Below are positions 638 to 47,048 of a stretch of DNA of 64,000 bases, piece after piece; the stretch's first letter is position 1, and every line of letters starts with the position of its first letter. The notes below the pieces were generated by a model, which saw nothing but the letters and a program-made list of their open reading frames with translations, was not told the origin of the DNA and did no database searches. This DNA is from Oceaniferula flava (lineage in GTDB: Bacteria; Verrucomicrobiota; Verrucomicrobiia; Verrucomicrobiales; Akkermansiaceae): positions 186,001 to 250,000 of the forward strand of contig NZ_JAFBGL010000003.1 of NCBI RefSeq assembly GCF_016811075.1, read 5' to 3'. The translations under genes and the position numbers were made by a program.

Positions 638-3600
638 TCACTGCCCGTTCTTGTTCAGCCAAGCGTTGATTTCGTCCCAAGTGAGGTAGAGCAGCATCGG
701 TGACTGAGTTCCCGGAACGCTGTAATCTCCATACGAGTGAGTGTGTTCATGACCGAAGGAGGTAAAAAACAGACCTTTGGGGGTAGGGGTCAAGCTTTTG
801 GAGTTAAGGATAGGCACTTGCATGGATTTTTGACTATCGGGGGTCAAGCTTGAGCTCATGCTGACCATTTCCTCGTTCAGTTGATAGCTGAGTGGGATCG
901 TTCTCGACCCGCTGCCGTCTAGATTGAGGCGGAGTAAGCGAAACTCATTGGGATCTCTCTTGGGATACTTCTGTAGGTTTTCTGGCTCGCGTTTGAGTAA
1001 CCATAAATATCCTTTTGCCACCACAGCGCCTAACAGCTCTCCTTTGAATTCAGGTTTCCCGAAATGATACAGAGGACGCACTTTTTTCAAGGCGGGACTC
1101 AGATTGGCCGCATACGAACGAAAAATCACCTGAGGTTTGTTTTGCGAAGCATCAAAGAGATACATGTAGTCGAGGCGCGGTTTGTTGGCATAGTATCCAT
1201 GGCACCAATAGAGGGTCTTATCTCCGCGTATTTGAGCAATGCCAGCGCCGTGGAGTGATGCCAGTTCTTTACCGCTCTCCAGTTCAACCAAGGGAGACCG
1301 TCCCCCAGACCTATAAAGCAACATCACCGTGTTTCCGGCCTTGTTTTGATAGGCAAAGTGAACACTTCTGGGGTCAAAGCGGTCGATTGGATGAAGTACT
1401 GGGCGCCGGGTGCTAGTAGTGATCCAATCCATGTTTCCTGCCGAATCGGCAAAACCAGCCAGCATCACGGGCGATTTAAGTCCATGGGGGGTCAAGCGCG
1501 AACCAATGAAGAAACCATCCTTAAGGCTCTGGATGTTCCAATAGAAGAGTTTTTTGCTATCTGATCTTGGCGCTTTAATTTCCTTCCACTGCTCGCCGGA
1601 GCTTGCACGTGGGCAGTGGAAAATTCTGCCATCCATGCAGACCATGATGGTCTGTTGGTTGACCGCTAGACTACTAATGAAAAGATTTTCTTTCAATGGA
1701 GGTTTGATGAACCTCTTCACCGCCATGCTCGAGACATCAAGCTCAATGATGCCTTCGCGGACGCGGGGAATAAAAAGAGAGTTACCAGAGGCTATCATTT
1801 CAGCCCCGTAAAGCCGGTTCTTGGAGGTGTCGTTAGGTCTCCAAAATTTGATGGGGAGGGCTCCGGCGATGACGGGTCTGGGGGCGATATATGTTTTATT
1901 GATATTCGGGTAATATTGAATAATCCGCTCCTTGATTTCCTGCAAAGACTTGGCATTGGACGCGTAGTTTTGCTTCCACCGTTTATCTTTTTTAGCCCAT
2001 GCATGATAGTGTGCCATCGACTGAAACAAACGCGCCATGTTAGCCTCTGACAATTCAGTTTCCTCGCCATTCGCATGCAAACACAAATACAATGTCAAGG
2101 TGTTAACATTGCTGATGAAATGTGAAGTCAGCCATTGTCGGCTCTCAAACACGCGAATGTATAATTGCGTTATTCTCGAATAGTAAGCTTTGAACAGGCG
2201 GTCGTCTCCTTTTCGAAATGGGAAGTCCTGAAAAACAGCAAAAACCTTCTGACCTCCAGGGCTCGAGATATACTTGAAGTTTTTCTCCAACAGTGCGCAA
2301 TACTCCATGAGGATTTGCTCTTGTTCTTGCTCGTCTTGAGTCGTTTGAAACGCAAATGCGAGTCCATCCAATTTGTTCACGAGGCGCTTGGATTTCCGTA
2401 GCTCGGCGATGAATTTCTTCCAGGCGTCCTCGCCTCGTCGATTGTCGGTGGATGTCCAGTCGACGAAGCGCCATAGAGTGGGCACGTGGTAGGTTTTCCA
2501 AAATTCTGTGCGGAGCCATGTGGCTGGGCAATCATACCGCAAGGTCAATGAGTCAGGGTTGAGCAGTTGCGTCAGCTCTTTGGCCGCTTGCTGGGGTGTC
2601 TCTGGTATGTAGAGCCGATTGACGAATTCTTTACCAAAATGCTTTTTGAACGCTTGCCCCTTGGCCAGAATGTGCCGTGAGTAGTCCCGCAGGACGCGAG
2701 CTTCTGACGCCAATTCAAGCTGCTGCTGACGGATGCAGATGGCCTGCAAGATTCGCGTGTTGTATCTGAGTTGGGCTCCTAATGGGAACAGCCGGTTTCT
2801 TATGTTCAGCTCTTTTTTGGAAAGCCCTCCGTAATTACCATCGACCATTTCAATGATGCATTGCGATGATCGGATCATCATCTTCACCATGTGTCTAAAT
2901 TCAGCGTCAGGCAGACGATCCAAGCCGTAGAGTTCGTAGGAAGGGACGGTATAGGTCATTCTCGGGTCGATCATGCCAAAGTAAGGTTGCTGGCGTCCTA
3001 ACAGTGTGAAGCCCTTTTGGTATCCCAGAGCGACAGCAGCCTCAAATGCCTGCGCTGACTCTGCGAACATACGGCGACTCAGGAGCCATTCGCCCAATTT
3101 GGCGTATTCCTCGCCTTCCTTGGTAGAATCCCAAACTTCTGTTTGTTGCCCCTTGCTCAAGGTGTGCACCACCTTCGTGACGATGTCTTTGGCAAGTAGG
3201 TTGGGGTTTTTGGTATTCCCGCGAACCTGGATGGTGGTTCCTTTGTCGGCTTGGGCATTTCGAATGCGCAAACTCACCGTCAGGGAGTCTTTGTCGCGAG
3301 TGATTGAGCCATCCACGAGCGCCGCTCCAGTGGATAAGCCAGGAAGCTTTTCATCCGCGATGGATCGCTCAAAGATGAGATCATTCATGCGCCAGCGCTC
3401 AGAGACAACAATATTGGGTTGGTTTGAAAGCTGTTGGGAGATGGCTAAGTTGATCGAGGTGTCGAGTGTTCTGTTAGTCTCAAGAGCCGACCGAAACCCC
3501 ATCAATGAGATCACGGTTGCGGGTTGATCATTTTCTTGCGTCAGACGTTCACAAGGAAAACGGAGCACTTTGGCAGCACGAAGAGTCGTCTGGGCGATTT

Positions 3601-4017: not shown

Positions 4018-4944
4018 CTATTGAATCAATTCCACCACAATCCACTCGGCAAGCTGAGCACCGGCATGTTGCAGTGCTGTCTTCGCGGCAGTGTTTTCCG
4101 CTGTATCCACCGCTCCGGTGGTGACCCGGTTGACGACTTTCTGATCAGGTGCAGCTTGCTGTTTGAGAATGATTTCGCAGCGAGCGCGGCAGCTGATCAG
4201 GTTACCAACTTGGCTGGCACGTTCGCTGAATGCCTCGCCTGTGAGCGTATAGTCGGCATCCTTCGAGGCGGTCTTGATGACAAAACCCAGCTTCTGCAGG
4301 ATCAAACCAATCTCCGTTTCCACAGCGGGGTCTGGAATCACGCGAGTCAGATGTTTCTCGGGAATCGAGATGTAGACCGAGGGAAGTTTTTTGCCAGCCG
4401 TGAGCTTTTTCAATCGGGCCACTTGCTGCTCGTGGGTTTCGTGCTGCGGAGCCATGTCGGCGGCAGCCTTTTGAATCGAGGTATCCAGGGATTTTGCCAA
4501 ACTTTTGGTCGCCTCTAACCAATTGCCACCTTTGAGCATCGTCTGGGCTGGCAGGCTGCGTCCGGTGGTGACGCTGATGGCTTTGGCGATGCAATAGGTG
4601 GTCTCTCCAGCTTTGAAAACACGACCCGTGATGAGGATCTGGGCTCCCATGAGCTTGCCGAGTGTCGAGGCGGATTTGGAATCGACTGCGCCGCTGATGC
4701 CCAGACCTTGTTCCGATAAAACGGAATCCAGTGAAGCACGTTCCACAAGAACGAATCGTCCGGACATGCCGAGTTGAGCCGACAAAAGCTCCGCGGCAGC
4801 CGCACCTGTATCCTTGGTGGCTGCAGTTTCGGCAAATGGTAAAACACCGACCGAAAAAACAATCGGTTTGGGCGCATTGGTGTCCTGAGCGAAGCAGGGA
4901 AAGACGGGAAGAAGCAGAGTGGCGAGTAGGAATAGGGGTTTCAT
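4018..4944 (-). CDS. CsgG-like exported protein
   Basis: This 308-residue protein has an N-terminal signal peptide ending near CFAQ. A CsgG-type domain follows, with the family's 'VGVLPFAE' strand, 'RFVLVERASLDSVLSEQGLG' and 'LGKLMGAQILITGRV' (about residues 32-115). CsgG forms the outer-membrane curli secretion pore, but most bacterial CsgG relatives have no known substrate. The usual lipobox is not obvious: the Cys in PVFPCFAQ is not in an L-x-[AG]-C context. Residues 180-305 form a second alpha/beta region with no clear family. It sits between the unknown exported gene (7-bp gap) and the 1122-residue CsgG/propeller protein (11-bp gap), pointing to one operon. No curli subunit genes (csgA, csgB) are present. 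Confidence 0.8.
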   Translation of the reverse strand: MKPLFLLATLLLPVFPCFAQDTNAPKPIVFSVGVLPFAETAATKDTGAAAAELLSAQLGMSGRFVLVERASLDSVLSEQGLGISGAVDSKSASTLGKLMGAQILITGRVFKAGETTYCIAKAISVTTGRSLPAQTMLKGGNWLEATKSLAKSLDTSIQKAAADMAPQHETHEQQVARLKKLTAGKKLPSVYISIPEKHLTRVIPDPAVETEIGLILQKLGFVIKTASKDADYTLTGEAFSERASQVGNLISCRARCEIILKQQAAPDQKVVNRVTTGAVDTAENTAAKTALQHAGAQLAEWIVVELIQ

Positions 4945-4951
4945 TAGGAGG

Positions 4952-5677
4952 TCAGGGTAAGAGTTTGAGGTGTTTGAGCAGGAGAGCTTGAGCGGGGGCT
5001 GAGTCGGGAAGCTGATCCAGATAGCCTGGTGGAAGGATGATGGTTTTTAAGTCAGTGTCATTGATGACTTCAATGATGGCGAGCGGGGCGGGGGCTTTGC
5101 GTTCGTACACGAGCACGCCTTTGAACAAATGGTCCGAGGGGTCAGGTTTGGTTTTGGAGAAGGTGTAATGCATGTTGTTGCTCGATGAGGCTGCGGCCTC
5201 AATCCCCTGAGCTTGTGCCCATGAACTCAATTTCTTCAGAGCCGGATCAATGAACACAGCCCCTTGTTGCGAGGACTTGACGATGCTGGCCCAGGCATCA
5301 GCAGGGAGGATTTCCACGATCAGGTTGCCTAGAAGTTTGCCTTCGGAACTTGCCAGGCGGAAAAGCACCTTGCCTCGTTCGGAGTGGGCTGGCATGGCCA
5401 AGTTCAAATCATTCTTTCCCGCCTCAAGTTGAGGCTGATCTCCCTGGTAGGTGAGCGGGGCTACGCTTTGGCCACTGACCTGATAGAGCGCGACTTTGAC
5501 GGGCCCGGGCTGCAGTGCCGTGGCCTGAACGTGCACCGACTTGCCAGCGTGAGCCCATGTGGTGACCGTGGTTTTTCCAGCGGCTTCACCGGCCATGAGC
5601 TGAGGGACCGACAAGCCCTCGGCGGATACATGCAGCGGGAGAAGCGATAGTAACAATGTGCTGATGATGTGTCTCAT
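4952..5677 (-). CDS. Exported protein of unknown function in the CsgG/Lon-like cluster
   Basis: The start is placed at the ATG giving MRHIISTLLLSLLPLHVSAEG, a typical signal peptide; a longer frame upstream adds 32 residues with no export signal and is less likely. The mature ~220-residue protein has a beta-rich first half (VHVQATALQPGPVKVALYQV ... KVLFRLASSEG), suggestive of a DUF4384-like or immunoglobulin-like fold, then an alpha/beta second half. No enzyme motif was recognised. It lies between the secreted Lon-like protease (107 bp upstream, same strand) and the CsgG-like gene (7 bp downstream). Fixed placement in the operon suggests it is a partner, or possibly a substrate, of the neighbouring exported proteins. 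Confidence 0.65.
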   Translation of the reverse strand: MRHIISTLLLSLLPLHVSAEGLSVPQLMAGEAAGKTTVTTWAHAGKSVHVQATALQPGPVKVALYQVSGQSVAPLTYQGDQPQLEAGKNDLNLAMPAHSERGKVLFRLASSEGKLLGNLIVEILPADAWASIVKSSQQGAVFIDPALKKLSSWAQAQGIEAAASSSNNMHYTFSKTKPDPSDHLFKGVLVYERKAPAPLAIIEVINDTDLKTIILPPGYLDQLPDSAPAQALLLKHLKLLP

Positions 5678-5784
5678 GCTCTTCTTTGATGCAACAGAAG
5701 GGGCATGATGGGGAGCCTTTTTTAAGTCAGCATCGCTCGATGGCGGAGCCCATGCCTGGCATCCGCCACACATCGCCGGGCGGA

Positions 5785-9753: not shown

Positions 9754-10154
9754 GGTTGTTTTGATGTTGAGTTGAGAAGTGCGAGAAATGACTGACGTCC
9801 AGCCCAGAGTAAGTAGGCTGATAAGGCAGCGATAATGATGACCGGAGGTGCAAACACGGCGCCGTGTCCTTTGATGAAGAGATTGATGGCGATGATATTG
9901 ATTACCACAGGGCCGAGAATCAGCAGCCCCCAATTGCGCGATTTAGGGATTACGACCAAGATAGCTCCGAGAATTTCCATCACTTTGAGAAAGTCCAGAT
10001 AGCCGCTCTGGGAGATGGCGGTGAAAAAGGCCACTGTGTGAGGTCCGGATTCGCCTCCGCTGGGCATTTTCAGAAAGTGAAAGAAGTGATTCAATCCAAA
10101 CAAGAGAAAGGCAAGTCCAAGCAGGGCTCCTGCTATGTTGGGAAGCTGTTTCAT
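9750..10154 (-). CDS. DoxX-family membrane protein
   Basis: This 134-residue protein has four predicted membrane segments: 'AGALLGLAFLLFGLNHF', a second spanning the FLKVMEILGAILVVIP region, 'WGLLILGPVVINIIAINLFI' and 'FAPPVIIIAALSAYLLWAG'. The GLNHFFHF start and the mid-chain GAILVVIP motif fit the DoxX/DoxD-like family, whose members work in redox and sulfur metabolism. Its stop overlaps the start of the YceI gene by 4 bp, so the two are translationally coupled. The flavin reductase and pirin genes lie upstream on the same strand. The exact function of DoxX proteins in this setting is not established. Confidence 0.8.
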   Translation of the reverse strand: MKQLPNIAGALLGLAFLLFGLNHFFHFLKMPSGGESGPHTVAFFTAISQSGYLDFLKVMEILGAILVVIPKSRNWGLLILGPVVINIIAINLFIKGHGAVFAPPVIIIAALSAYLLWAGRQSFLALLNSTSKQP

Positions 10155-18516: not shown

Positions 18517-18540
18517 GGAGGATGGACATTCCTGTCCATC
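18517..18540 (+). repeat. REP-like hairpin with adjacent GGAG
   Basis: GATGGACATTCCTGTCCATC (18521-18540) is an imperfect palindrome immediately preceded by GGAG at 18517-18520. The same GGACATTCCTGTCC core with adjacent GGAG occurs at 43413-43436 and, inverted, at 43483-43506. It lies between cdd and deoD. Confidence 0.7.
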
Positions 18541-38606: not shown

Positions 38607-40007
38607 CTAGTTCTTACTGCGTAAATGGTAATCGTCACGGGTGAAATATTTCTCCCAGTCCATCTTCCAGCCCGACCACTCAAGCTGTAGTGGCAGCTCT
38701 TCGTAGGAATAGGAGCCTCTGAGGAATTGCCCGTCACGTGTGAGTTCGAAGCGCACCTTGCCGCTGCGTTTTTCTCCCTGCCAAGACCCCTCGAGACCGT
38801 AGGAGGATTCCTTCAGCGAGAGCTTGCGATCCGCGCAGTGGCCGGACCACTTGCCATCACTTTTTTTGGTAAGTGTGAGCGGACCGTAGAAGGTTTCCCA
38901 TTTCCCCGCCAAGTTCTCGTAAGTTGCGTGCGCGATGAGGTTGGTCTTGTCGAATGTTAGCTCCGAAAGCTGCACGCGATGTTGTAAACGGGTTTCGTTG
39001 TTCGTGTCTTTGATTGCCAGCGTGATGGTCGGGTCTTTGGCTTCCCAATCGATATCCACCATCGCAAAATTCGCCCCACCGTAACCGGGGCCCACCCTGC
39101 GGCGGGTGCGGGCGGCTCCGAGTGGCACGTTCAGCGAGCTGCTGGTGAAATCGACCAAGGAGTAGCAGTTTTCAGGATCCATCACATTGAGCTCGGCACT
39201 GTGAATATCACCACTCAGAAAAACAACACCCTCCGCCCGATGCTTCACGATCAAATCCACCAAGCGTTGCTGCTCGCGAGGGAGGTTATTCCAGGCCTCA
39301 TAGCCTGTGTGATGCGCGGCGAACTGAATGCTCGTGCCGATCAGGCGAATGCGGGCCGGTTTCTGAAGCTCTCCTTCTAACCACTTCCACTGAGCATCGC
39401 CTAACATGGTCTTCTCTGGCGACTCGTCAGGTGTCCAGCGTCCCATGGGACGGTAGGGCGGTTTTCCATCAATGCGTTTCAGTTCCGATCGGAAATAGCG
39501 AGTATCTAACAAAATTAACTGCACCCGCTTGTCTCCCTCGCCAAAGTAGTAGCTGGTATAGACCCCCTCGCGCTTTCGCCGTGGACTATCGGGTCGCTCA
39601 TCGAAGAACTCGAGGAAAAGTTGCTCGGACTCCTTGCGCTCCGGATACTCACTGCCGGCATCATTCCAGCCGTAGTCGTGGTCGTCCCAAGTCGCTAGAA
39701 CCGGACAGCTGGCCGCGAGTTGACGGTAGCCAGTGGTTGCCCCCAGCTCGGCGTATTTCTTTTTCATCACGCCCATGTCATGGGTATCGGCATAGATGTT
39801 ATCGCCAAGCCACAGCCAGAGTTGTGGTTTGTTAGAAACGATCGGCTGCCAGTGTTTCTGCGAGTGCGACGATTTCCAACAGGAGCCAAAGGCAAAATGA
39901 CTCAGCGTGATGCGGGGGTTATCGTTAGGCAATGTCTGATGATGGAGTTCCTCGGCAAGGAGGGGAGTGCAGCAGAAAAGTAAACTTAGAAAAATCCGGA
40001 TTATCAT
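38607..40007 (-). CDS. PhoD-like phosphatase (alkaline phosphatase D family), secreted
   Basis: The chosen ATG at 40007 gives a signal peptide (MIIRIFLSLLFCCTPLLAEE); an upstream start adds 14 residues and breaks it. The metallophosphoesterase core shows 'FAFGSCWK', 'LWLWLGDNIYAD', 'VLATWDDHDYGWNDAG', 'VQLILLDTRYFRSE', 'IRLIGTSIQFAAHHTGYEAW' and 'VVFLSGDIHSAELN', as in PhoD/YbaK-like phosphodiesterases. The C-terminal ~130 residues form an extra domain with 'GKWSGHCADRKLSLKESSYGLEGSWQGEKRSGKVRFELTRDG', perhaps binding substrate. No Pho-regulon genes adjoin it. Substrate could be phosphate esters or wall polymers. Confidence 0.85.
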   Translation of the reverse strand: MIIRIFLSLLFCCTPLLAEELHHQTLPNDNPRITLSHFAFGSCWKSSHSQKHWQPIVSNKPQLWLWLGDNIYADTHDMGVMKKKYAELGATTGYRQLAASCPVLATWDDHDYGWNDAGSEYPERKESEQLFLEFFDERPDSPRRKREGVYTSYYFGEGDKRVQLILLDTRYFRSELKRIDGKPPYRPMGRWTPDESPEKTMLGDAQWKWLEGELQKPARIRLIGTSIQFAAHHTGYEAWNNLPREQQRLVDLIVKHRAEGVVFLSGDIHSAELNVMDPENCYSLVDFTSSSLNVPLGAARTRRRVGPGYGGANFAMVDIDWEAKDPTITLAIKDTNNETRLQHRVQLSELTFDKTNLIAHATYENLAGKWETFYGPLTLTKKSDGKWSGHCADRKLSLKESSYGLEGSWQGEKRSGKVRFELTRDGQFLRGSYSYEELPLQLEWSGWKMDWEKYFTRDDYHLRSKN

Positions 40008-40133
40008 AGAGGTAAGCACTTGGTATTGAACCGACCATAGAACCACCATCGTCGACTGGAAAGATCATATCTTCTGAGCGGTTAAATGAGATCACCGAAG
40101 AAAGTCAAAAAAGACACTTGTAAAAATCTGTAT

Positions 40134-40151
40134 TTTCAGTAATTACTGAAA
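40134..40151. promoter_or_regulatory. Perfect 18-bp palindrome overlapping the regulator's translation start region
   Basis: TTTCAGTAATTACTGAAA is a perfect palindrome ending three bases before the ATG at 40155. A related site lies at 40736-40753 before the next gene. It is the probable autoregulatory operator of the MarR/GbsR-type regulator; binding would block both promoter and ribosome access. Confidence 0.75.
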
Positions 40152-40154
40152 GAG

Positions 40155-40688
40155 ATGAAGGGCAACACGGAAAACACCACCCCAAAGCTCGATGAAGTCC
40201 GCGATGGATTCATCGCCCAGTGGGGAGCCTTTGGCAGCCAATGGGGGATCAACCGCACCATGGCCCAGATCCATGCCCTCCTCATGACCGGCACCGATGC
40301 CTTGAGCACCGATGAAGTCATGGAAAAGCTCACCATCAGCCGCGGCAATGCCCACACCAACCTCAAGGAACTGGTGAGCTGGGGCCTGGTCCGTATCATC
40401 GTTAGGAAAGGGGAGCGTAAAGAATTCTTCGAGGCCGAAAAGGATGTCTGGAAGATCTTCACCATCATCCTGCGCGAACGCCAACGCCGCGAGATCGACC
40501 CCGCTTTGGAGCTTCTGCGCGATTGCCAACAGGAGACTAAAGACCTCAAGGGCACCGAGGCCGAAGCCTTCCGCAACCAGGTAAAAGAATTGGAGCAATT
40601 CGTCAGCTTCGCCCGCAACGTCGGCGGCAAAGTCGGCAAGCTCTCCTACGGCCCTGCGATGAAACTCGCAGCCAAAGTCCTGGGCTAA
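40155..40688 (+). CDS. MarR/GbsR-type transcriptional regulator
   Basis: The 177-residue protein has a winged helix-turn-helix of the GbsR/MarR type: 'WGINRTMAQIHALLMTGTDALSTDEVMEKLTISRGNAHTNLKELVSWGLVRIIVRKGERKEFFEAEKDVWKIF', about residues 25-97. A helical dimerisation tail follows. GbsR relatives repress membrane or osmolyte genes. The start is the ATG at 40155, directly after a perfect palindrome, which leaves little room for a normal ribosome binding site; a leaderless mRNA is possible. A matching palindrome precedes DUF2071 at 40773, so it probably represses itself and the downstream cluster. The ligand is unknown. Confidence 0.85.
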   Translation: MKGNTENTTPKLDEVRDGFIAQWGAFGSQWGINRTMAQIHALLMTGTDALSTDEVMEKLTISRGNAHTNLKELVSWGLVRIIVRKGERKEFFEAEKDVWKIFTIILRERQRREIDPALELLRDCQQETKDLKGTEAEAFRNQVKELEQFVSFARNVGGKVGKLSYGPAMKLAAKVLG

Positions 40689-40735
40689 TCCTATTGCCCG
40701 CCCGAACCCAACACCCGAATCCGCATAAAACAAAC

Positions 40736-40753
40736 TTTCAGTATTTTCTGAAA
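40736..40753. promoter_or_regulatory. Second operator copy upstream of DUF2071
   Basis: TTTCAGTATTTTCTGAAA keeps the TTTCAG...CTGAAA arms of the palindrome at 40134 with the same 18-bp length. It lies 19 bp upstream of the start at 40773. The 84-bp gap after the regulator suggests a separate promoter controlled by the same protein. Confidence 0.72.
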
Positions 40754-40772
40754 ATACAAACTTCACCGACTC

Positions 40773-41480
40773 ATGAAACCCTTCATCAATGTTCACTGGA
40801 AAAACCTGCTGGTAGTCAACTACCGCGTGGACCCGGCTGCGCTTGGCTTATTGGAAGACGAGTTACCTGTTGGCACGGAACTCGACGGTTTTCACGGCGA
40901 GCACTACGTCAGCGTGGTCGCCTTCCAATTTCAAAAGACCCGCATTCTCGGCATCCCCATGCCGTTTTACCGCGACTTCGCCGAGATCAACCTACGCTTC
41001 TACGTGCGTCGCAAAGTGGACGGGGCATGGCGACGCGGGGTGGTATTCGTCAAAGAGATCGTGCCCTGCCGACTCCCGGCCATGGTCGCTAACAAAATCT
41101 TCAAAGAAAACTTCCACATCCGCGCACTGACATGCGGCAGCGATGACAAAACTCTCAACTACCAATGGATCGACGGGGGAGAGCTGCAACAGCTGGAAAT
41201 CGATCGCAACACCCAACTCGAAACGCCCGCCCCCGGCAGCCTTACCGAGCACATCATCGATCACTACTGGGCCTATAAAAAGATCAACGACACCACCACC
41301 GGCGAATTCCAAGTCACCCACCGCGCCTGGCAAACCCACCCCTGTCCAGCCGCCCGCATCGACCTCAACATCGCCCAAGTCTACGGCCAACAATGGGCCA
41401 ATGCCCTCACCCCAGTCAGCACCTTCTACGCCGACGGCAGCCAAGTCCAAGTCACCAAACCCAAAAAGCTAAGAAACTAA
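40773..41480 (+). CDS. DUF2071 (YqjF-like) protein
   Basis: The 235-residue product matches DUF2071: 'INVHWKNLLVVNYRVDPAALGLLEDELPVGTELDGFHGEHYVSVVAFQF', 'ILGIPMPFYRDFAEINLRFYVRR' and 'GVVFVKEIVPCRLPAMVANKIFKENFH', with an acetoacetate-decarboxylase-like fold suspected for the family. B. subtilis YqjF is the best-known member and is of unknown activity. The gene starts 19 bp after a TTTCAG...CTGAAA operator and is followed by two 9-bp-unit repeat elements and then the DCC gene. It is often found with TIGR01777 and DCC proteins, as here. It is cytosolic by sequence. Confidence 0.85.
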   Translation: MKPFINVHWKNLLVVNYRVDPAALGLLEDELPVGTELDGFHGEHYVSVVAFQFQKTRILGIPMPFYRDFAEINLRFYVRRKVDGAWRRGVVFVKEIVPCRLPAMVANKIFKENFHIRALTCGSDDKTLNYQWIDGGELQQLEIDRNTQLETPAPGSLTEHIIDHYWAYKKINDTTTGEFQVTHRAWQTHPCPAARIDLNIAQVYGQQWANALTPVSTFYADGSQVQVTKPKKLRN

Positions 41481-41483
41481 CAA

Positions 41484-41510
41484 CCTTCCGTAAATTCCGT
41501 CCCTTCCGTG
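41484..41510. repeat. 27-bp element of three 9-bp units
   Basis: Units are CCTTCCGTA, AATTCCGTC and CCTTCCGTG in exact 9-bp register, beginning four bases after the DUF2071 stop. The sequence differs from the nuo elements, but the architecture is the same. Confidence 0.7.
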
Positions 41511-41541
41511 GTTCCCAAAATGAACTAACAACCCAAGCAAA

Positions 41542-41568
41542 AATTCGCCCAATTCGCAAGATTCGCGG
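41542..41568. repeat. 27-bp element of three 9-bp units
   Basis: Units are AATTCGCCC, AATTCGCAA and GATTCGCGG in exact 9-bp register. It lies 31 bp after the previous element and 22 bp before the DCC gene start. Confidence 0.7.
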
Positions 41569-41590
41569 TCAAAACTAGAAACCCAACCCC

Positions 41591-42058
41591 ATGAAAATAC
41601 CACCTAACATCCAAACCATCGAAGTCTACTACGACGGCCGCTGCGGCATGTGCTGCACCTTCCACGAGTGGGTCAACCAGCAGACACGCGCCTTCCCAGT
41701 GCGGTTCATCGCCTACCAAGACCCACAAGCTGAGGAGTGGTTCCCGGGCGTCAACGCACTCGAACCCGAGCGTGAAATGATCGTGCGCACTCACGACCAC
41801 CAACTCTATCGCGGAGCCGAAGGCTGGGTGCTCTGTCTGCTCAGTTGCGAAAAATACCAAGGTATCGCCCGCCGCATCGCCAGCCCCACACTACTACCGT
41901 TCGCTGAGAAAACCTGCCACGCCCTGGCCGCTCGCCGACACAAACTCAGCAAGATTTTCTTCCGCAAAAAAGACCAAGAGGTCGCCGCCGAACTGCACCG
42001 CATGCCCACGGACGAATGCACTGAAGCCTGCAACAACATTCCTGATGGGCTGATCTAA
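41591..42058 (+). CDS. DCC-family thiol oxidoreductase-like protein (DUF393)
   Basis: The 155-residue protein has the DCC signature 'VYYDGRCGMCCTFHEWV', with DGxCxxC at residues 15-21 (Cys18 and Cys21) followed by another Cys at 22. 'GAEGWVLCLLSCEKYQGIARRIASPTLLPFAEKTCHALAARRHKLS' matches the family's second half. The DCC group has a thioredoxin-like fold and is thought to be a thiol-disulfide oxidoreductase, but activity is largely untested. It lies between DUF2071 and a run of small membrane proteins in the regulator-controlled cluster. Confidence 0.85.
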   Translation: MKIPPNIQTIEVYYDGRCGMCCTFHEWVNQQTRAFPVRFIAYQDPQAEEWFPGVNALEPEREMIVRTHDHQLYRGAEGWVLCLLSCEKYQGIARRIASPTLLPFAEKTCHALAARRHKLSKIFFRKKDQEVAAELHRMPTDECTEACNNIPDGLI

Positions 42059-42089
42059 TGATCGACATTCAGAAACTAGAATTAAGACA

Positions 42090-42482
42090 ATGAAAACAAC
42101 AAGTAAAGTAGCCGCTAGTTTTTTAGCCATGGCTTTGGGGTGGATCGTTATGATGATCATTCTCACCGTGTTTATGTTGGCCTCAGCTCCAGCATGGAGC
42201 AGTCTAGGTGATTTAACTATCATTGGCATCTATTCATTTTTCGTGGTGCTAGGAGCTTGGTTTATAGTCTGCCTGCCTCTTTACATATTGATTCCGAACA
42301 ATTGCTTCCTGTTTGAGTGGTATGTTGGCGGGCCTATCGGTGCCTGCGTCGGATTCTTAGCCGGTTATTTGCTGATTGGACATATTGGCTTCTGCTGTCT
42401 CGCCATGACTGTTGGTGGGGTTGCTGGTGGTATTGGCCGACTCTTCATCGAAGACCCTGGCTACAAAGCGCCTCAAATTTAA
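42090..42482 (+). CDS. Small membrane protein, unknown
   Basis: The 130-residue product has three or four hydrophobic helices ('ASFLAMALGWIVMMIILTVFMLASAP', 'LTIIGIYSFFVVLGAWFIVCLPLYILIP', 'GPIGACVGFLAGYLLIG', 'GFCCLAMTVGGVAGGIGRLF'). No family was recognised. Codon use is more AT-leaning than in the flanking genes (for example TTATTTGCTG and ATTGGC runs), which hints at a different history. It lies 31 bp after the DCC gene and 38 bp before the next membrane gene, on the same strand. Confidence 0.6.
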   Translation: MKTTSKVAASFLAMALGWIVMMIILTVFMLASAPAWSSLGDLTIIGIYSFFVVLGAWFIVCLPLYILIPNNCFLFEWYVGGPIGACVGFLAGYLLIGHIGFCCLAMTVGGVAGGIGRLFIEDPGYKAPQI

Positions 42483-42520
42483 ACCTAACAAATTTATGAT
42501 AATCACTAACTAACAATACC

Positions 42521-42925
42521 ATGAACTACACCGTCATTACCTACATCGCCTACCTTGTCATCGCCGTTCCGCTCACCATTTGGGTGGCGAAGACACTGCA
42601 TAAAAATGGGCGAGTCTTCCTGCTCAAGAGCATGAACAACGATGAAAACCTCGCCGACAGCGTCAATCACCTGTTGGTGGTGGGCTTCTATCTGGTGAAC
42701 CTCGGATTTGTCTCGCTCTACCTGAAACTCGAGAGTCGCGTGGAAAACATCAGCGGCATCTTCGAAGCCCTCAGCGCCAAGCTCGGCGTGGTCATGCTGG
42801 TCCTTGGTGGCATGCACTTTTTCAACATCTACCTGTTCTCACGCCTGGGGCGGAAAAACTGCGACACCGCACCCACTACGCCACCCGCCTACGCCGGGTG
42901 GAACAAAGAAGTAAATCCAAAGTAG
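42521..42925 (+). CDS. Membrane protein of unknown function in the TIGR01777 cluster
   Basis: The 134-residue product has three membrane helices: 'VITYIAYLVIAVPLTIWVAKTLH', 'VNHLLVVGFYLVNLGFVSLYLKL' and 'KLGVVMLVLGGMHFFNIYLFSRL'. The 'AKTLHKNGRVFLL' segment after the first helix is strongly conserved-looking in character, but no named family was recognised. The C-terminal tail (TPPAYAGWNKEV) is encoded over a hairpin, CCACCCG...CGGGTGG at 42881-42901, so the tail may come from a repeat insertion at the gene end. A BIME-like repeat follows directly. Confidence 0.65.
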   Translation: MNYTVITYIAYLVIAVPLTIWVAKTLHKNGRVFLLKSMNNDENLADSVNHLLVVGFYLVNLGFVSLYLKLESRVENISGIFEALSAKLGVVMLVLGGMHFFNIYLFSRLGRKNCDTAPTTPPAYAGWNKEVNPK

Positions 42926-43018
42926 GGTAGGTTTGTAACCTGCCGACAACCCAAGGAATAATCATCCTCAGCTCAAATTATTCACCAAACCAGCCGACAG
43001 CTTACAAAGTTGTCCTAC
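42922..43018. repeat. REP/BIME pair with adjacent GTAG tetranucleotides
   Basis: The left hairpin is GTAG followed by GGTAGGTT-TGT-AACCTGCC (42922-42944). The right one is the inverted form, GACAGCTT-ACA-AAGTTGTC followed by CTAC (42996-43018). Each stem has one G-T wobble. The arrangement, two inverted hairpins each with GTAG on the outer side, is that of a BIME. It lies between two membrane-protein genes. Confidence 0.7.
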
Positions 43019-43022
43019 CACC

Positions 43023-43412
43023 ATGACCATCTACGCCATCCAATTTGCAGGCATCATCCTGCTCTGCATCACCTCGGCCAATTTTTTTGCCCCGAAGAAA
43101 ATGCGCTGGTCGGTGAACCTCGCCAAAACCGAACCAGTGTTCCGGCAGGTCTTCATTGTCCACTGTGTCTTCTTGTTAGGATGCGTGCTGGCCATGGCGC
43201 TGGCTTGTCTCATCCTGCCTCATCAGCTCCTGACCGAGCCGTTGGGTCGGGTGCTGCTGGCATTCATGGCGCTGTTTTGGACGGCGCGGGTGCTGGTGCA
43301 GTTCTTCTACTACGAGCGCAGCATCAAGCGTGAGTTTCCAGTTTTCAACGTGCTCTTTAGCGTCGCCTTTATTTACTTAGCAGTCTGCTTCTCATTTCTG
43401 AGTCTGACCTAA
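43023..43412 (+). CDS. Four-helix membrane protein, paralogue A
   Basis: The 129-residue product has four helices: 'YAIQFAGIILLCITSANFFAP', 'FIVHCVFLLGCVLAMALACLIL', 'LLAFMALFWTARVLVQFFYY' and 'FNVLFSVAFIYLAVCFSFLSL'. It shares layout and motifs with the product of 43513 (RQ(V/L)F near residue 40, 'WTxRxxxQFF' in helix 3), so the two are probably diverged paralogues. No named family was recognised. It lies between repeat-filled gaps but keeps the same strand as the MBOAT and TIGR01777 genes downstream, which suggests a shared process. Confidence 0.7.
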   Translation: MTIYAIQFAGIILLCITSANFFAPKKMRWSVNLAKTEPVFRQVFIVHCVFLLGCVLAMALACLILPHQLLTEPLGRVLLAFMALFWTARVLVQFFYYERSIKREFPVFNVLFSVAFIYLAVCFSFLSLT

Positions 43413-43506
43413 GGAGTCCGGACATTCCTGTCCGGAGTCAACCCCAGCCCTCAACCTAAGTTTGATTAATCCCTAGTTTGTCGGCGGACAGGAATGTCCG
43501 CCCTCC
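43413..43506. repeat. Inverted pair of GGAG-type REP hairpins
   Basis: GGAG (43413-43416) is directly followed by the hairpin TCCGGACATTCCTGTCCGGA (43417-43436). The inverted copy GGCGGACAGGAATGTCCGCC (43483-43502) is followed by CTCC (43503-43506). Both share the core found at 18521-18540. The pair fills the 100-bp gap before the gene at 43513. Confidence 0.75.
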
Positions 43507-43512
43507 CTAACC

Positions 43513-43938
43513 ATGAAAATAGAAATACTCACCATTGCCGTCATGCTCGCAGGAGTCGGGCAGCTCATCCTCGTCGTGGCCAGTGCCGTGATTCCTCGTT
43601 GCCTCGATTGGAAAGGTCCGCTGGGAGCTCTTCCCAAGCTCATGCGGCAGTTGTTCTGGACCTACGCCGGATACATCCTCGGCATGCATCTGTTCTTCGG
43701 TGTGATGTCGACTTTCGGCAGCGGGCTCTTGCTCGATGGCACGCCACAAGCAGCCATTCTCTGCGGGCTGATGATGACCTGGTGGACAGTGAGGATCGGG
43801 CTGCAGTTCTTTTGCTTTGATCGCAAGGGGATTCCACAAACGCGATTCAACCTGCTGGCCGAGGCTCTGTTAGTCTGTCTGTTTCTCTTCCTCGCAATGA
43901 CTTACGCCGGAGCTCTTTATTTTAACCTCACCACATGA
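43513..43938 (+). CDS. Four-helix membrane protein, paralogue B
   Basis: The 141-residue product has four helices: 'ILTIAVMLAGVGQLILVVASAVIP', 'FWTYAGYILGMHLFFGVMSTF', 'AAILCGLMMTWWTVRIGLQFFCF' and 'LLAEALLVCLFLFLAMTYAGALYF'. It mirrors paralogue A at 43023 in helix order and in the 'WTVRIGLQFF' / 'WTARVLVQFF' motif. Its stop overlaps the start of the MBOAT gene by 4 bp (ATGA), indicating translational coupling and probably a shared membrane complex with that acyltransferase. Function is unknown. Confidence 0.72.
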   Translation: MKIEILTIAVMLAGVGQLILVVASAVIPRCLDWKGPLGALPKLMRQLFWTYAGYILGMHLFFGVMSTFGSGLLLDGTPQAAILCGLMMTWWTVRIGLQFFCFDRKGIPQTRFNLLAEALLVCLFLFLAMTYAGALYFNLTT

Positions 43939-44816
43939 TCCACACTCTTTACAGCGTTCTGTTAGCAATCAGCTTCCTCGCTCTCACGCGGGTGCTAGCC
44001 AAGCGTTACGTGCTCTGGCCGGGTATGCTGGTGGTGCTGGCTGTGGTGAACTACCTTCACTTCACCGATCCACCCTTCGCGCGAATGGTCGTCATCTGCT
44101 CGGTCTTGTTGATTTGCATGAAGGGGATCGTGCTCGCCGAGTGGGGCGGGCGACTCACCTGGCCGCGCTGGTTCGCGTTTACCTTCCTTTGGTTCGGCAT
44201 GGAACCGCCCCCTTTTGCAGCGAAGCCAAGAAAGCTAAGATGGAAAACGGATGCCGTGATTGGTGGCTGCTGCCTGTTAGTCGGGCTGAGTCTCAGCATC
44301 ATTGTGGCGCATTGGGAGACCGACTCGATCCTCGTCCTCTTTGTGCCCTTAAGCATCGGGTTCCACTACGGAGTGTTACGACTGCTCACTGCCTTCTGGC
44401 GCCTACAAGGAATTGCTGTCCGCCCATTGTTCCGCAATCCATTGCTGAGTCAAGGACTGGGCGATTTCTGGGCGAAACGGTGGAACCTGTCGTTTTCCCA
44501 AATGATGGCCAGGGCCGTGCAGCGTCCGCTGGTTTTAAGGCTGGGAAAACGCCCGGCACTATTCGCCGTTTTCCTCGCCTCCGGATTACTGCACGAGCTC
44601 GCCATCACGGTGCCAGTGCAGAGTGGCTACGGACTGCCGACGCTGTATTTCGTCCTCCACGGTGGGTTTGTCATGATCGAGAAACCTGCATGGCCGCTGT
44701 GGCTGAGACGGGCACTGGCACTCCTCCTCGTTGCCGCACCTTTGCCGATTCTTTTCCCTCCCGTGTTCACCCAAGAGGTGATCCGGTTCACGCTGAACCA
44801 TCTCCAAATTTTCTAA
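43935..44816 (+). CDS. MBOAT / wax synthase-like membrane acyltransferase
   Basis: The 293-residue membrane protein has about eight helices. The signature 'DFWAKRWNLSFSQMMARAVQRPL' (Phe178-Trp-Ala-Lys-Arg-Trp-Asn184) and the catalytic-type 'LASGLLHELAIT' (His220-Glu221) match the MBOAT_2/wax synthase-like group, which moves acyl chains onto alcohols or lipids. It is smaller than typical MBOATs of 350-500 residues, but both motifs are intact. It is translationally coupled to paralogue B and 14 bp upstream of the first TIGR01777 gene. An acyl-transfer step on an envelope or storage lipid is a reasonable inference; the substrate is unknown. Confidence 0.8.
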   Translation: MIHTLYSVLLAISFLALTRVLAKRYVLWPGMLVVLAVVNYLHFTDPPFARMVVICSVLLICMKGIVLAEWGGRLTWPRWFAFTFLWFGMEPPPFAAKPRKLRWKTDAVIGGCCLLVGLSLSIIVAHWETDSILVLFVPLSIGFHYGVLRLLTAFWRLQGIAVRPLFRNPLLSQGLGDFWAKRWNLSFSQMMARAVQRPLVLRLGKRPALFAVFLASGLLHELAITVPVQSGYGLPTLYFVLHGGFVMIEKPAWPLWLRRALALLLVAAPLPILFPPVFTQEVIRFTLNHLQIF

Positions 44817-44830
44817 CCTCACTAACAATC

Positions 44831-45739
44831 ATGAAAAAACTGATCATCGCCGGTGCCAATGGCTTTTTGGCACGTTATCTCACTCGTTATTTTACGGAGC
44901 GCGGCTGGGTCGTGGTCGGCCTGGCGCGTCATCGTGACGGCATGGGCCCTCAATGCCGCTACGTCCACTGGGATGGGGCATCGCTGGGGGACTGGGCGGA
45001 TGAAATCGATGGTGCCGATGTGCTGGTAAACCTCGCAGGCCGCTCCGTGAACTGCCGATACAACAAGGCCAACAAACGCGCCATCATCGACTCGCGCGTC
45101 AACAGCACCCGAGTGATCGGCGAAGCGATAGCCAACTGCGCCCAGCCACCGGAGCTGTGGATCAACTCCAGCACTGCCACGATCTACCGCCATGCCGAAG
45201 ACCGACCGCAGAGTGACAGCGGGGAAATTGGCCAAGGGTTCTCGGTGGAGGTGGCCAAGGCCTGGGAAGAGGCATTTTTTAGCGCTCATGTGCCGGGTCG
45301 CGTGCGCAAGCTTGCCATCCGCACCTCGATGGTGCTCGCGGACGAGCCTGGCACCGTTTACCGCTATCTCTATCAGCTGGCACGTTTCGGCCTGGGCGGC
45401 AAGGTGGGCAGTGGCCGACAGATGGTCAGCTGGATTCACATTCACGACTTCTGCCGGGCGATCGATTGGTTGATCGAGCACGACGAAATCTCAGGCCCGG
45501 TCAACGTCACCTCACCTGACCCACTGTGCAACGCCGAGCTGATGCGACGATTTCGCCGACACAGCGGCACTGCCATCGGGTTGCCCGCGACGAAGTGGAT
45601 GGCTGAGATCGGTGCTTTCCTTTTACGCACCGAAACCGAGTTGATTCTGAAAAGCCGCTGGGTGGTTCCCACGAGGTTGTTAGAACATGGTTTTGTGTTC
45701 AAACATCCGGAGATGGAGCCGTGGAACTGGCAGAAATAG
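44831..45739 (+). CDS. TIGR01777-family epimerase-like protein, copy 1
   Basis: The start is the ATG at 44831 (MKKLIIAGANGFLARYL); the frame upstream is open but out of register with the MBOAT gene and not coding. The 302-residue product is an extended SDR protein: 'GANGFLARYLTRYFTERGW' (NAD(P)-binding), 'DVLVNLAGRSVNCRYNKANKRAIIDSRVNSTRVIGEAI', 'LWINSSTATIYRH', 'RTSMVLADEPGTVYRYLYQLARFGLGGKVGSGRQMVSWIHIHDFCRAIDWLI' and 'GPVNVTSPDP' define TIGR01777 (YfcH/SulA-like). Reaction is unknown. A close paralogue follows at 45776. Confidence 0.88.
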   Translation: MKKLIIAGANGFLARYLTRYFTERGWVVVGLARHRDGMGPQCRYVHWDGASLGDWADEIDGADVLVNLAGRSVNCRYNKANKRAIIDSRVNSTRVIGEAIANCAQPPELWINSSTATIYRHAEDRPQSDSGEIGQGFSVEVAKAWEEAFFSAHVPGRVRKLAIRTSMVLADEPGTVYRYLYQLARFGLGGKVGSGRQMVSWIHIHDFCRAIDWLIEHDEISGPVNVTSPDPLCNAELMRRFRRHSGTAIGLPATKWMAEIGAFLLRTETELILKSRWVVPTRLLEHGFVFKHPEMEPWNWQK

Positions 45740-45775
45740 CCTGTGTTTCTGTGATTCTAAGCTATCGTGACCGTT

Positions 45776-46678
45776 ATGAAGAAGCTACTCGTCGCCGGCG
45801 CCAATGGTTTTTTAGCCAAGCAGATCAGCGGCTACTTTGCGCAGCTGGGGTGGAGCGTGTCCGGCCTGGCTCGGCGCGAGGGAGGACTGCATCCGGAGTG
45901 CCGCTACGTGCACTGGGACGGGAAGTCGTTAGGCGACTGGACAAGCTCCATCGACGACTGCGATGTGCTGATCAACATGGTCGGCCGATCGATCAACTGT
46001 CGCCACACCGAGGAAAACAAGCAGCAGATCCTGCAATCCAGGTTGCAGAGCACGGCGGTGTTAGGTCGTGCCGTGGCGCAAAGCGAAACCCCGCCCAGTT
46101 TATGGATCAACGGCAGCGCGGCGGGGATCTATCAAGAGTCTTATGATCAAGCGATGGATGAAAGCGGGGCTGAGGGCGAGGGCTTTATCGCTGATGTCGT
46201 GAAGCAGTGGGAGGCAGAATTTTTCAAGGCCGAGATCGCGTCGAGCGTGCGCCGTGTGGCACTGCGCACCACCATGGTCCTGGCCGACACGCCAGACAAT
46301 CCCTACCGCTACCTACAGACGCTGGCGAAGACCGGATTGGGCGGCAAGGTGGGCAATGGCCGACAAATGGTGAGCTGGGTGCACATCGATGACGTGCCGC
46401 GTGTGGTGCAGCACATCATCGATCACGAAGATCTAACTGGTCCAGTCAACATGGCCGCCCCCGAAGCGGTGACCAATGCCGAAATGATGCGCCGTTTTCG
46501 CCAACAAGCAGGCATGCCCATCGGATTGCCAGCACCAGCATGCGCGGTGAAGATCGGAGCCTCGGTCATCGGCACCGCACCGGAGCTGATTCTGCAAAGC
46601 AGCTGGGTGGAGCCGGGGAAATTGTTGGGCAGCGGTTTTACTTTCACCCAGCCAAAGATGGCGCTGGGAGAATGGTAG
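45776..46678 (+). CDS. TIGR01777-family epimerase-like protein, copy 2
   Basis: This 300-residue paralogue of the preceding gene begins MKKLLVAGANGFLAKQI; a GTG three codons upstream is an alternative. It keeps all family blocks: 'DCDVLINMVGRSINCRHTEENKQQILQSRLQSTAVLGRAV', 'LWINGSAAGIYQE', 'RTTMVLADTPDNPYRYLQTLAKTGLGGKVGNGRQMVSWVHIDDV' and 'GPVNMAAPEAVTNAEMMRRFRQQAGMPIGLPAP'. The high similarity to copy 1 indicates tandem duplication. It is the last gene of the plus-strand cluster and ends 2 bp from the convergent vapC. Confidence 0.88.
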   Translation: MKKLLVAGANGFLAKQISGYFAQLGWSVSGLARREGGLHPECRYVHWDGKSLGDWTSSIDDCDVLINMVGRSINCRHTEENKQQILQSRLQSTAVLGRAVAQSETPPSLWINGSAAGIYQESYDQAMDESGAEGEGFIADVVKQWEAEFFKAEIASSVRRVALRTTMVLADTPDNPYRYLQTLAKTGLGGKVGNGRQMVSWVHIDDVPRVVQHIIDHEDLTGPVNMAAPEAVTNAEMMRRFRQQAGMPIGLPAPACAVKIGASVIGTAPELILQSSWVEPGKLLGSGFTFTQPKMALGEW

Positions 46679-46679
46679 C

Positions 46680-47048
46680 CTACGGCTTGTAGCAGACTCC
46701 GAACTGTTCTGCTGCGGTGGCGAGGCGTTTATCATCGGTCCATAACAAGGTGTCCTCGCTAGCGATTACGGAGGCAAGTATCGCAAGATCATTCCACTGC
46801 AGCCCCTTGCCCCAGAGTTGATTTTCCTCGATCAGGTGATGAGTTTCCGCGTAGCTGGCCGCTCGGACTGTGGGGAAGGCGCGAAGATCGATGAGTGTTT
46901 GTTTTCGCTGAGGTAGATTTCCCACGGAGAGCTCGCCGATCACGAGCGGGTGGATGGATAGAAAATCATACTCGATGAGCGAGGTCAGCACTGGCTTGCC
47001 ATCGCGGAAGTATTGGCACCAGATGTTGGTGTCTGCGAGCACAGTCAT
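46680..47048 (-). CDS. vapC: VapC-type PIN-domain toxin
   Basis: The 122-residue PIN protein has the acidic metal-binding set: Asp6 (LADTNIW), Glu39 (IGELSVG), Asp87 (QWNDLAIL) and Asp105 (WTDDKRLA). VapC toxins are endoribonucleases, often cutting initiator tRNA or rRNA. The gene lies 2 bp after the antitoxin gene, as usual for vapBC pairs, and converges with the TIGR01777 copy 2 gene. Intact motifs suggest a functional toxin. Target RNA cannot be read from the sequence. Confidence 0.88.
   Translation of the reverse strand: MTVLADTNIWCQYFRDGKPVLTSLIEYDFLSIHPLVIGELSVGNLPQRKQTLIDLRAFPTVRAASYAETHHLIEENQLWGKGLQWNDLAILASVIASEDTLLWTDDKRLATAAEQFGVCYKP

Follow-up and report, generated by a model that had tools for sequence, protein, structure and literature searches.

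The described systems that come closest to the locus reported here are the MBOAT acyltransferases DGAT1 and ACAT (SOAT), the GbsR family of regulators (GbsR, OpuAR, CudC, and CydE), the TIGR01777/YfcH/ThyD proteins, and gene clusters controlled by LitR/ChrR regulators. Bacterial MBOATs with a role in surface O-acylation of the DltB/AlgI type are known, as is the control by LitR/ChrR of clusters of photolyase, SDR, and fatty-acid-modifying genes. For the TIGR01777 family, we know of no settled activity. Here, we analyzed a locus in a 64,000-nucleotide stretch of the genome of Oceaniferula flava, a member of the Akkermansiaceae (contig NZ_JAFBGL010000003.1, positions 186,001 to 250,000 of the forward strand); this whole stretch is hereafter called the window. 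The locus spans positions 40155–46678 and holds ten genes, all on the plus strand, in the order regulator, DUF2071, DCC, four small membrane proteins (TM1 to TM4), MBOAT, and two TIGR01777 proteins. On balance, we favor reading it as a self-regulated lipid-modification cassette, in which the acyl step would be carried out by a two-subunit MBOAT.

The window MBOAT has in common with DGAT1 and ACAT (SOAT) its fold, as judged by the Z scores of its structural model (19.0–20.5 and 14.5–18.1, respectively), and an Asn and a His in matching motifs. It differs from DGAT1 by its size (293 residues versus 355–421 in the solved chains) and shows about 13% identity to it; unlike both DGAT1 and ACAT, it is tied to a separate four-helix partner and to a local regulator. 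The regulator shares with the GbsR family a winged-helix MarR-like head and, presumably, local control of neighboring genes, together with a WGxNR...IHALL and GERK pattern that we take to be that of the family. It stands, however, beside lipid-type genes and not beside osmolyte genes or cydAB, and it scores below the curated cut-offs, with 24.2 versus 27 bits for MarR_2 and 55 versus 218 bits for CudC, its best NCBIfam match. It may still function like a GbsR-type regulator. The accessible portion of a survey of the GbsR family describes a Bacteroidetes sub-group without a consistent neighborhood (PMC6207618), and the present cassette supplies a neighborhood for some members of that sub-group. 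Between the window TIGR01777 copies, both above the family cut-off, and TIGR01777/YfcH/ThyD, we found no difference. The LitR/ChrR-controlled clusters, described as light-induced in Pseudomonas, likewise bring SDR, lipid-modifying, and unknown proteins together under regulation, yet they involve another regulator family and other enzymes, and MBOAT, DCC, and TIGR01777 are not named for them in the sections of that article at hand (PMC9758184).

Literature searches returned no paper joining the families of the locus, a negative that concerns the named families and leaves aside the nameless TM2 and TM34, the latter being our label for four-helix membrane proteins of the TM3/TM4 type. Likewise, nothing was found for TIGR01777 with DUF2071, for Verrucomicrobi with wax ester and MBOAT, or for photolyase with DUF2867. 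Under the DCC name, one paper offered, in its accessible part, just one transcript with a DUF393 gene. The protein types of the locus are known ones, apart from the small membrane families.

The ten genes form a recurring cassette

The genes and two operator-like palindromes are as follows (window coordinates).

40134..40151, no strand: operator-like palindrome TTTCAGTAATTACTGAAA, zero-mismatch match, ending 3 bp before the regulator start
40155..40688, plus: GbsR/MarR-like regulator (REG), 177 residues; MarR_2 24.2 bits and CudC 55 bits, both below cut-off
40736..40753, no strand: second operator-like palindrome TTTCAGTATTTTCTGAAA, ending 19 bp before DUF2071
40773..41480, plus: DUF2071 protein (ADC-like fold family), 235 residues, occasional member; PF09844 155.4 bits
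41591..42058, plus: DCC1-like thiol-disulfide oxidoreductase, 155 residues, DGRCGMC; PF04134 43.9 bits
42090..42482, plus: TM1, small membrane protein, 130 residues, without family match
42521..42925, plus: TM2, small membrane protein, 134 residues, recurring, no named family and no family match
43023..43412, plus: TM3, four-helix membrane protein, TM4 paralogue by match to the TM4-family model
43513..43938, plus: TM4, four-helix membrane protein, MBOAT partner by pairing in loci; AlphaFold2 pLDDT (predicted local distance difference test) 96.4
43935..44816, plus: MBOAT_2 acyltransferase, 293 residues, N184 and H220; PF13813 40.3 bits; AlphaFold2 pLDDT 95.8
44831..45739, plus: TIGR01777 atypical SDR protein 1 (SDR1), 302 residues; 236.5 bits
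45776..46678, plus: TIGR01777 atypical SDR protein 2 (SDR2), 300 residues; 229 bits

Three sets of loci were compared. Among 98 genomes, that of O. flava included, 26 had a match to the window MBOAT, and the loci of 24 other genomes were fetched (the relatives' loci). A scan of a species-level genome collection with an MBOAT alignment confirmed 124 stretches, of which the best 80 were retained (the scanned loci). Finally, 288 genomes were drawn evenly from the phylum (the phylum sample). In the first of these searches, three weak MBOAT matches (E values of 3e-5 to 2e-4) were removed prior to counting. The relatives' loci, the scanned loci, and the operator loci described below share some organisms and contigs and should not be read as independent sets; individual loci and genomes bear L and G labels, and SDR in locus counts means a TIGR01777-type gene. 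Open reading frames were called mechanically, so that gene starts and some overlaps are approximate. Pfam annotation of neighbors was limited to chosen proteins and not to complete loci. Gene counts obtained with our own profiles in the 80 scanned loci are lower bounds, since Pfam shows in L120 a DCC domain that our profile missed; some of these loci are also short.

The ten genes are a real cassette, and a chance neighborhood is rejected by its recurrence across the relatives' and phylum-sample loci. The MBOAT loci of the scan came from Verrucomicrobiota, Planctomycetota, Paenibacillus/Cohnella, Bacteroidota, Nannocystis, and single records of other groups, the closest relatives being Akkermansiaceae, in the Verrucomicrobiales. 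The cassette itself recurred among Verrucomicrobiota and at four Bacteroidota loci, and the initial annotation, which had named the lack of a repeated neighborhood in other genomes as what would refute it, was borne out on this point. Among the 24 relatives' loci, 16 had an orthologue of the regulator, 13 a DCC gene, 12 an SDR gene, and 5 a DUF2071 gene. Regulator orthologues were also present in 18 of the 80 scanned loci and in 10 of the 12 MBOAT loci of the phylum sample.

One chromosomal site, marked by TatD and rhodanese-domain genes, was found in several versions in congeners. At this site, L179 and L212 carry REG-DCC-SDR, L181 carries REG-DCC-TM2-SDR-SDR-PIN with a PhoD-like gene on the other side, and L028 a version that includes TM3-TM4-MBOAT. 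This indicates that the pair was gained or lost while the regulator, DCC, and TIGR01777 genes remained. From these comparisons of gene content, the regulator, DCC, TM2, and TIGR01777 genes make up a recurring core, to which the acyltransferase and its partner are an add-on, present in many genomes but not in all. Neither this separability of the MBOAT and its partner nor the operator was part of the earlier reading, and both are new here.

The MBOAT and its four-helix partner

The MBOAT exceeded the MBOAT_2 cut-off of 25 bits. Its FW..RWN and HE motifs, which had been described as intact, are indeed so: in an alignment of 39 sequences, the window's included, F178, W179, W183, N184, H220, and E221 were invariant and R182 nearly so. 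We take N184 and H220 to be the catalytic Asn and His of the MBOAT motifs. The best structural match of the model was human DGAT1, with a Z score of 20.5 over 276 residues at 3.8 Å. All 26 entries with Z scores of 14.5–20.5 were MBOATs, assuming that PDB entry 6bug among them is one, and the next row, outside the superfamily, stood at 6.6. The DGAT1-like fold of the model makes a lipid acceptor plausible, in keeping with the pathway on an acylated lipid or quinone-like molecule put forward initially; redox chemistry of the classical SDR kind is unsupported (see below).

Another possibility was that the MBOAT, assisted by TM4, exports acyl groups and attaches them to a polymer of the envelope, in line with the known DltB/AlgI-type MBOATs of bacteria. 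DltB was indeed among the structural matches (Z score of 16.5, Foldseek E value of 5e-4), in the same range as PORCN (16.1–16.3), and it is straddled by the ACAT/SOAT rows. The DGAT1 structures, however, came top, and the sole PDB sequence matches were to DGAT1, weak and partial as they were (67 positions, E value of 1e-5). Neither Pfam nor NCBIfam recognized a DltD/AlgX-type protein among the ten window proteins. The phylum sample, in addition, set the MBOAT subfamily (12 of 288 genomes, all at E < 1e-60) apart from other matches, the best of which reached 4e-10. Surface O-acylation thus appears quite improbable.

The lipid-modification reading assigns TM4 to the enzyme itself. The initial annotation had coupled the MBOAT to a small membrane protein, and the comparisons support this. 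In the window, the 3' end of TM4 and the start of the MBOAT gene overlap by 4 bases. A TM34 gene adjoins the MBOAT gene in 23 of the 24 relatives' loci, L042 being the exception, and lies within 150 bp of it or overlaps it in 74 of the 80 scanned loci. Four of the six exceptions begin less than 300 bases from a contig end; in the other two, the MBOAT gene is split with TM34 534 bp off (L108), or MBOAT and TM34 are fused in one frame (L129). A second fusion was found in L233 (7906–9285, minus strand; MBOAT at residues 14–314, TM34 at 324–457). In the phylum sample, TM34 was present in 12/12 genomes with the MBOAT and 8/276 without it (Fisher p = 2e-16, relatedness being ignored). The six loci newly fetched from this sample all had REG ahead of the MBOAT gene, and five had an SDR gene; in four of the six, TM34 stood less than 50 bp from the MBOAT gene or overlapped it, in L234 the distance was about 380 bp, and L233 has the fusion. 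Judging from gene order, MBOAT and TM34, here TM4, are a near-inseparable pair that would act as a unit.

TM3 and TM4 are homologous: the TM4-family model found TM3 at an E value of 1.6e-20, with 22% identity, and the TM34 proteins have W91, R94, and Q98 in common. The AlphaFold2 model of TM4 is a confident four-helix bundle, for which no PDB entry matched with an E value of 0.001 or lower; the Z scores, of 10.5 at most, were to helix bundles of various unrelated kinds. We assign no known fold to TM4 from these bundle matches, the sigma-2 receptor rows (Z score of about 8) lying below the threshold of the tool for helical bundles. A kinship of TM34 with DoxX_3 or TM2 seems unlikely, hhalign having given no relation to either.

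Two further loci are worth mentioning. In L069, one mechanically called frame (2657–3292, plus strand) has a partial match to DCC and a match to TM34, and could be a fusion or a read-through from an over-long start. In L098, a Planctomycetota contig, a YndJ-like protein (PF14158; 11153–12445, plus strand) is encoded near REG, TM34, and MBOAT.

An operator-like palindrome accompanies the regulator

The palindromes at the regulator and at DUF2071 are 18 bp long, the second being a near copy of the first. In the whole genome of O. flava (3.95 Mb in 51 contigs), TTTCAGTAATTACTGAAA and TTTCAGTATTTTCTGAAA were the sole zero-mismatch matches to TTTCAGTANNTNCTGAAA; a large regulon in this genome is rejected, there being just two exact sites. 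We then searched 142 genomes, that of O. flava included, for the pattern TTTCAGWAWWTWCTGAAA, and obtained 60 sites in 45 genomes, as against none with the reversed control. Outside O. flava, 48 of 58 sites adjoin a cassette-type gene, compared with 9.9% for random positions in the same loci. The genes beside these 48 sites are REG (26), DCC (10), TM2 (4), SDR (3), DUF2071 (2), SRPBCC (2), and TM34 (1).

The surroundings of the regulator were also inspected in 34 REG loci besides the window (16 relatives' and 18 scanned loci, some contigs being counted twice). In 17 of them, a palindrome of the TTTCAG...CTGAAA type was listed on one side or the other of the regulator, and variant palindromes occurred there in four Bacteroidota loci (L094, L109, L115, L120) and two Planctomycetota loci (L098, L110). 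With a looser pattern, each of the four Bacteroidota genomes had between 1 and 4 matches, of which at least one fell at the cassette; the reversed control gave one match in two of the four. Together with the sites in O. flava and its relatives, these palindromes support the proposal that the regulator is dedicated to this locus. The cassette is apparently self-regulated, as far as its predicted operators indicate.

The operator also occurs in other settings. In L172, L176, and L192, it is followed by a membrane protein without family match and a PEMT-like protein fused to a DCC domain, the assignment of the fusion in L192 having BLAST support only. This arrangement is a second operon type under the same predicted operator. 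A 309-residue protein of L176 looked SRPBCC-like by eye only. In L169 and L174, DUF2071 stands behind an operator apart from the cassette, and in L184 a fatty-acid desaturase gene (4847–5737, plus strand) adjoins an operator-bearing DCC-REG pair. In L173 (6130–9885), the operator lies ahead of genes for an SDR, an SDR-DUF2867 protein, and a photolyase-related DPRP protein.

The L173 arrangement is one reason to consider a regulon for light or oxidant stress, in which the cassette would repair or cap oxidized membrane lipids and the acyltransferase would be one effector. DoxX_3 in the f2/f4 cassettes and the thiol protein DCC also fit such a role, as do the light-induced Pseudomonas clusters, for which the accessible text reports photolyase, SDR, and a furan-fatty-acid enzyme (PMC9758184). 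A table of plant plastoglobule proteins, in the part of the article available, places a putative DCC protein alongside phytyl ester synthases (PMC12587418), a co-listing that we treat as a loose lead. Yet a single photolyase-linked site was seen among the 58, neighbors having been annotated at part of them, there was no photolyase in nine Bacteroidota neighbor proteins, and no photoreceptor was recognized among the annotated proteins. We therefore regard a stress regulon as unlikely.

The regulator might alternatively sense choline or betaine like its Bacillus relatives, the enzymes acting on a choline-type lipid. That CudC is its best NCBIfam match speaks for this, and so do the PEMT-DCC fusions behind the operator in L172, L176, and L192 (BLAST support) and the binding of choline by GbsR, as given in the accessible part of the survey (PMC6207618). 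The CudC score, however, is far under the cut-off; no Opu, bet, or gbs gene was recognized among the annotated neighbors; and another relative, CydE, responds to sulfate according to the same portion of the survey (PMC6207618). We consider an osmolyte or choline module highly improbable.

TIGR01777, DCC, DUF2071, and the remaining membrane proteins

As had been proposed, the last two genes encode tandem TIGR01777 proteins, both above the family cut-off of 207.35 bits, and they are the only such genes in the O. flava genome. The nucleotide-binding glycines G8 and G11 were invariant in 15 cassette members. The YxxxK pair was not conserved across these 15, which departs from classical and extended SDRs and leaves the redox role initially given to these proteins, in the classical SDR sense, unsupported. 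A redox role for DCC fared better and is plausible: the protein passes the DCC1-like cut-off (27.8 bits), contains DxxCxxC, and has D15, C18, C21, and C143 invariant in 12 sequences.

The DUF2071 protein scores far above its cut-off of 27 bits, and the genome holds three DUF2071 genes. The family has an ADC-like fold, and the Schiff-base lysine of ADC is not conserved in it, according to the text available (PMC4520260). DUF2071, which had been listed in the set, is an occasional member of it, present in 5 of 24 relatives' loci and 1 of 80 scanned loci. SRPBCC genes in relatives gave weak to moderate Pfam matches.

None of TM1 to TM4 had a match in Pfam, NCBIfam, or PHROGs. TM2 recurred in 14 of 80 scanned loci and 15 of 45 operator loci. 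TM1 had no relative among the 24 relatives' loci and is probably lineage-specific, judging by this distribution. It lies in the 2-kb block with the lowest G+C content from position 10001 on (0.512 in 42001–44000).

Gene starts, flanking genes, and repeats

The initial annotation placed ten genes after the regulator; ten is the count with the regulator included. SDR1 starts at the ATG at 44831, and for SDR2 the ATG at 45776 is the more likely start. A 541-residue frame at 44114–45739 was rejected as a gene, its 44114 start running in another frame through the MBOAT gene. The flanking genes are on the opposite strand. Upstream, a PhoD-like phosphatase gene (38607–40049, minus) faces the regulator, and a homologue has the same place in L181. 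Downstream come a PIN gene, TatD, and a rhodanese-domain protein that we read as MnmH. The PIN-domain gene (46680–47048, minus; PF01850, 23.7 versus a cut-off of 23.6 bits; VapC-like by eye) lies directly behind the cassette, and a copy with 75% identity is at the same place in L181.

Between TM3 and TM4 lies an inverted pair of GGACAGGAATGTCCG (43419–43433, minus; 43486–43500, plus). A third copy, with one mismatch, is at 18523–18537 (minus), which makes 3 observed versus 0.10 expected. By eye, a similar inverted pair lies between TM2 and TM3 (42925–43022), and the elements are REP (repetitive extragenic palindrome)-like.

Proposed function

A recurring, regulated cassette with a membrane acyltransferase and a small partner probably makes an acylated lipid. 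Under our preferred reading, a lipid-modification cassette, the regulator would repress its own gene and the operon, and would be released on binding a small effector. The MBOAT-TM4 complex would move an acyl chain onto the hydroxyl of a lipid-like acceptor, with Asn184 and His220 inside the reaction chamber and TM4 as a component of the enzyme. A lipophilic intermediate may be bound by DUF2071 and, in relatives, by SRPBCC proteins, DCC may perform thiol-redox upkeep, and the TIGR01777 proteins are predicted to bind NAD(P) without classical SDR catalysis.

Several observations weigh against this reading. As regards the operator, matches with up to two mismatches were not commoner in the O. flava genome than those of the reversed control (11 versus 13). 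Ten of the 58 sites outside this genome had no adjoining cassette-type gene (L171, L175, L172, L176, L192, L173, L180, L183, L196, and L203); the L171 site lies by a TetR gene opposite a weakly sigma-like gene, L175 being a sibling locus, and the L180 site is at a contig end. The motif was absent at the regulator in 11 of the 34 REG loci (L029/L052, L031, L041, and seven f2/f4 loci), where L029/L052 are one contig, cut near the regulator, and some motif-less loci carry other palindromes. As regards composition, the 35 Verrucomicrobiota scanned loci had at least 12 REG, 26 DCC, 15 SDR, and 12 TM2 genes and no DUF2071 by our profiles, and the 45 others at least 6 REG, 4 SDR, 2 TM2, and 1 DUF2071, with no DCC; outside Verrucomicrobiota, by the same profiles, the MBOAT-TM34 pair mostly occurred without the remaining cassette genes. 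SDR was found in 7 of the 12 MBOAT loci of the phylum sample, against the 10 with REG. As regards the partner, the TM34 reading frame in G019 runs across one TGA stop, and eight phylum-sample genomes have TM34 without this MBOAT. Five of these eight were examined: L236 has REG-TM34-DUF2071, L240 has DUF2071-TM34-SDR, and in the other three no cassette gene was seen, which indicates that TM34 is not solely an MBOAT subunit.

A bolder version would see here an operator-controlled lipid remodeling shared across phyla, with the MBOAT as an obligate two-subunit enzyme involving a new four-helix family and with an acylated lipid undescribed in bacteria. We put this forward tentatively, and hold it to be possible more than probable.

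The cassette places DUF2071, DCC, TIGR01777, and TM34, to our knowledge families without settled activity, in a single context that has a defined operator and can be tested. It also offers a candidate obligate subunit for a membrane acyltransferase, and natural presence/absence pairs are available at one chromosomal site. Eventually, the identity of the acylated product could help to establish what the TIGR01777 proteins do, a family that was also detected in the Escherichia coli and Bacillus subtilis controls.

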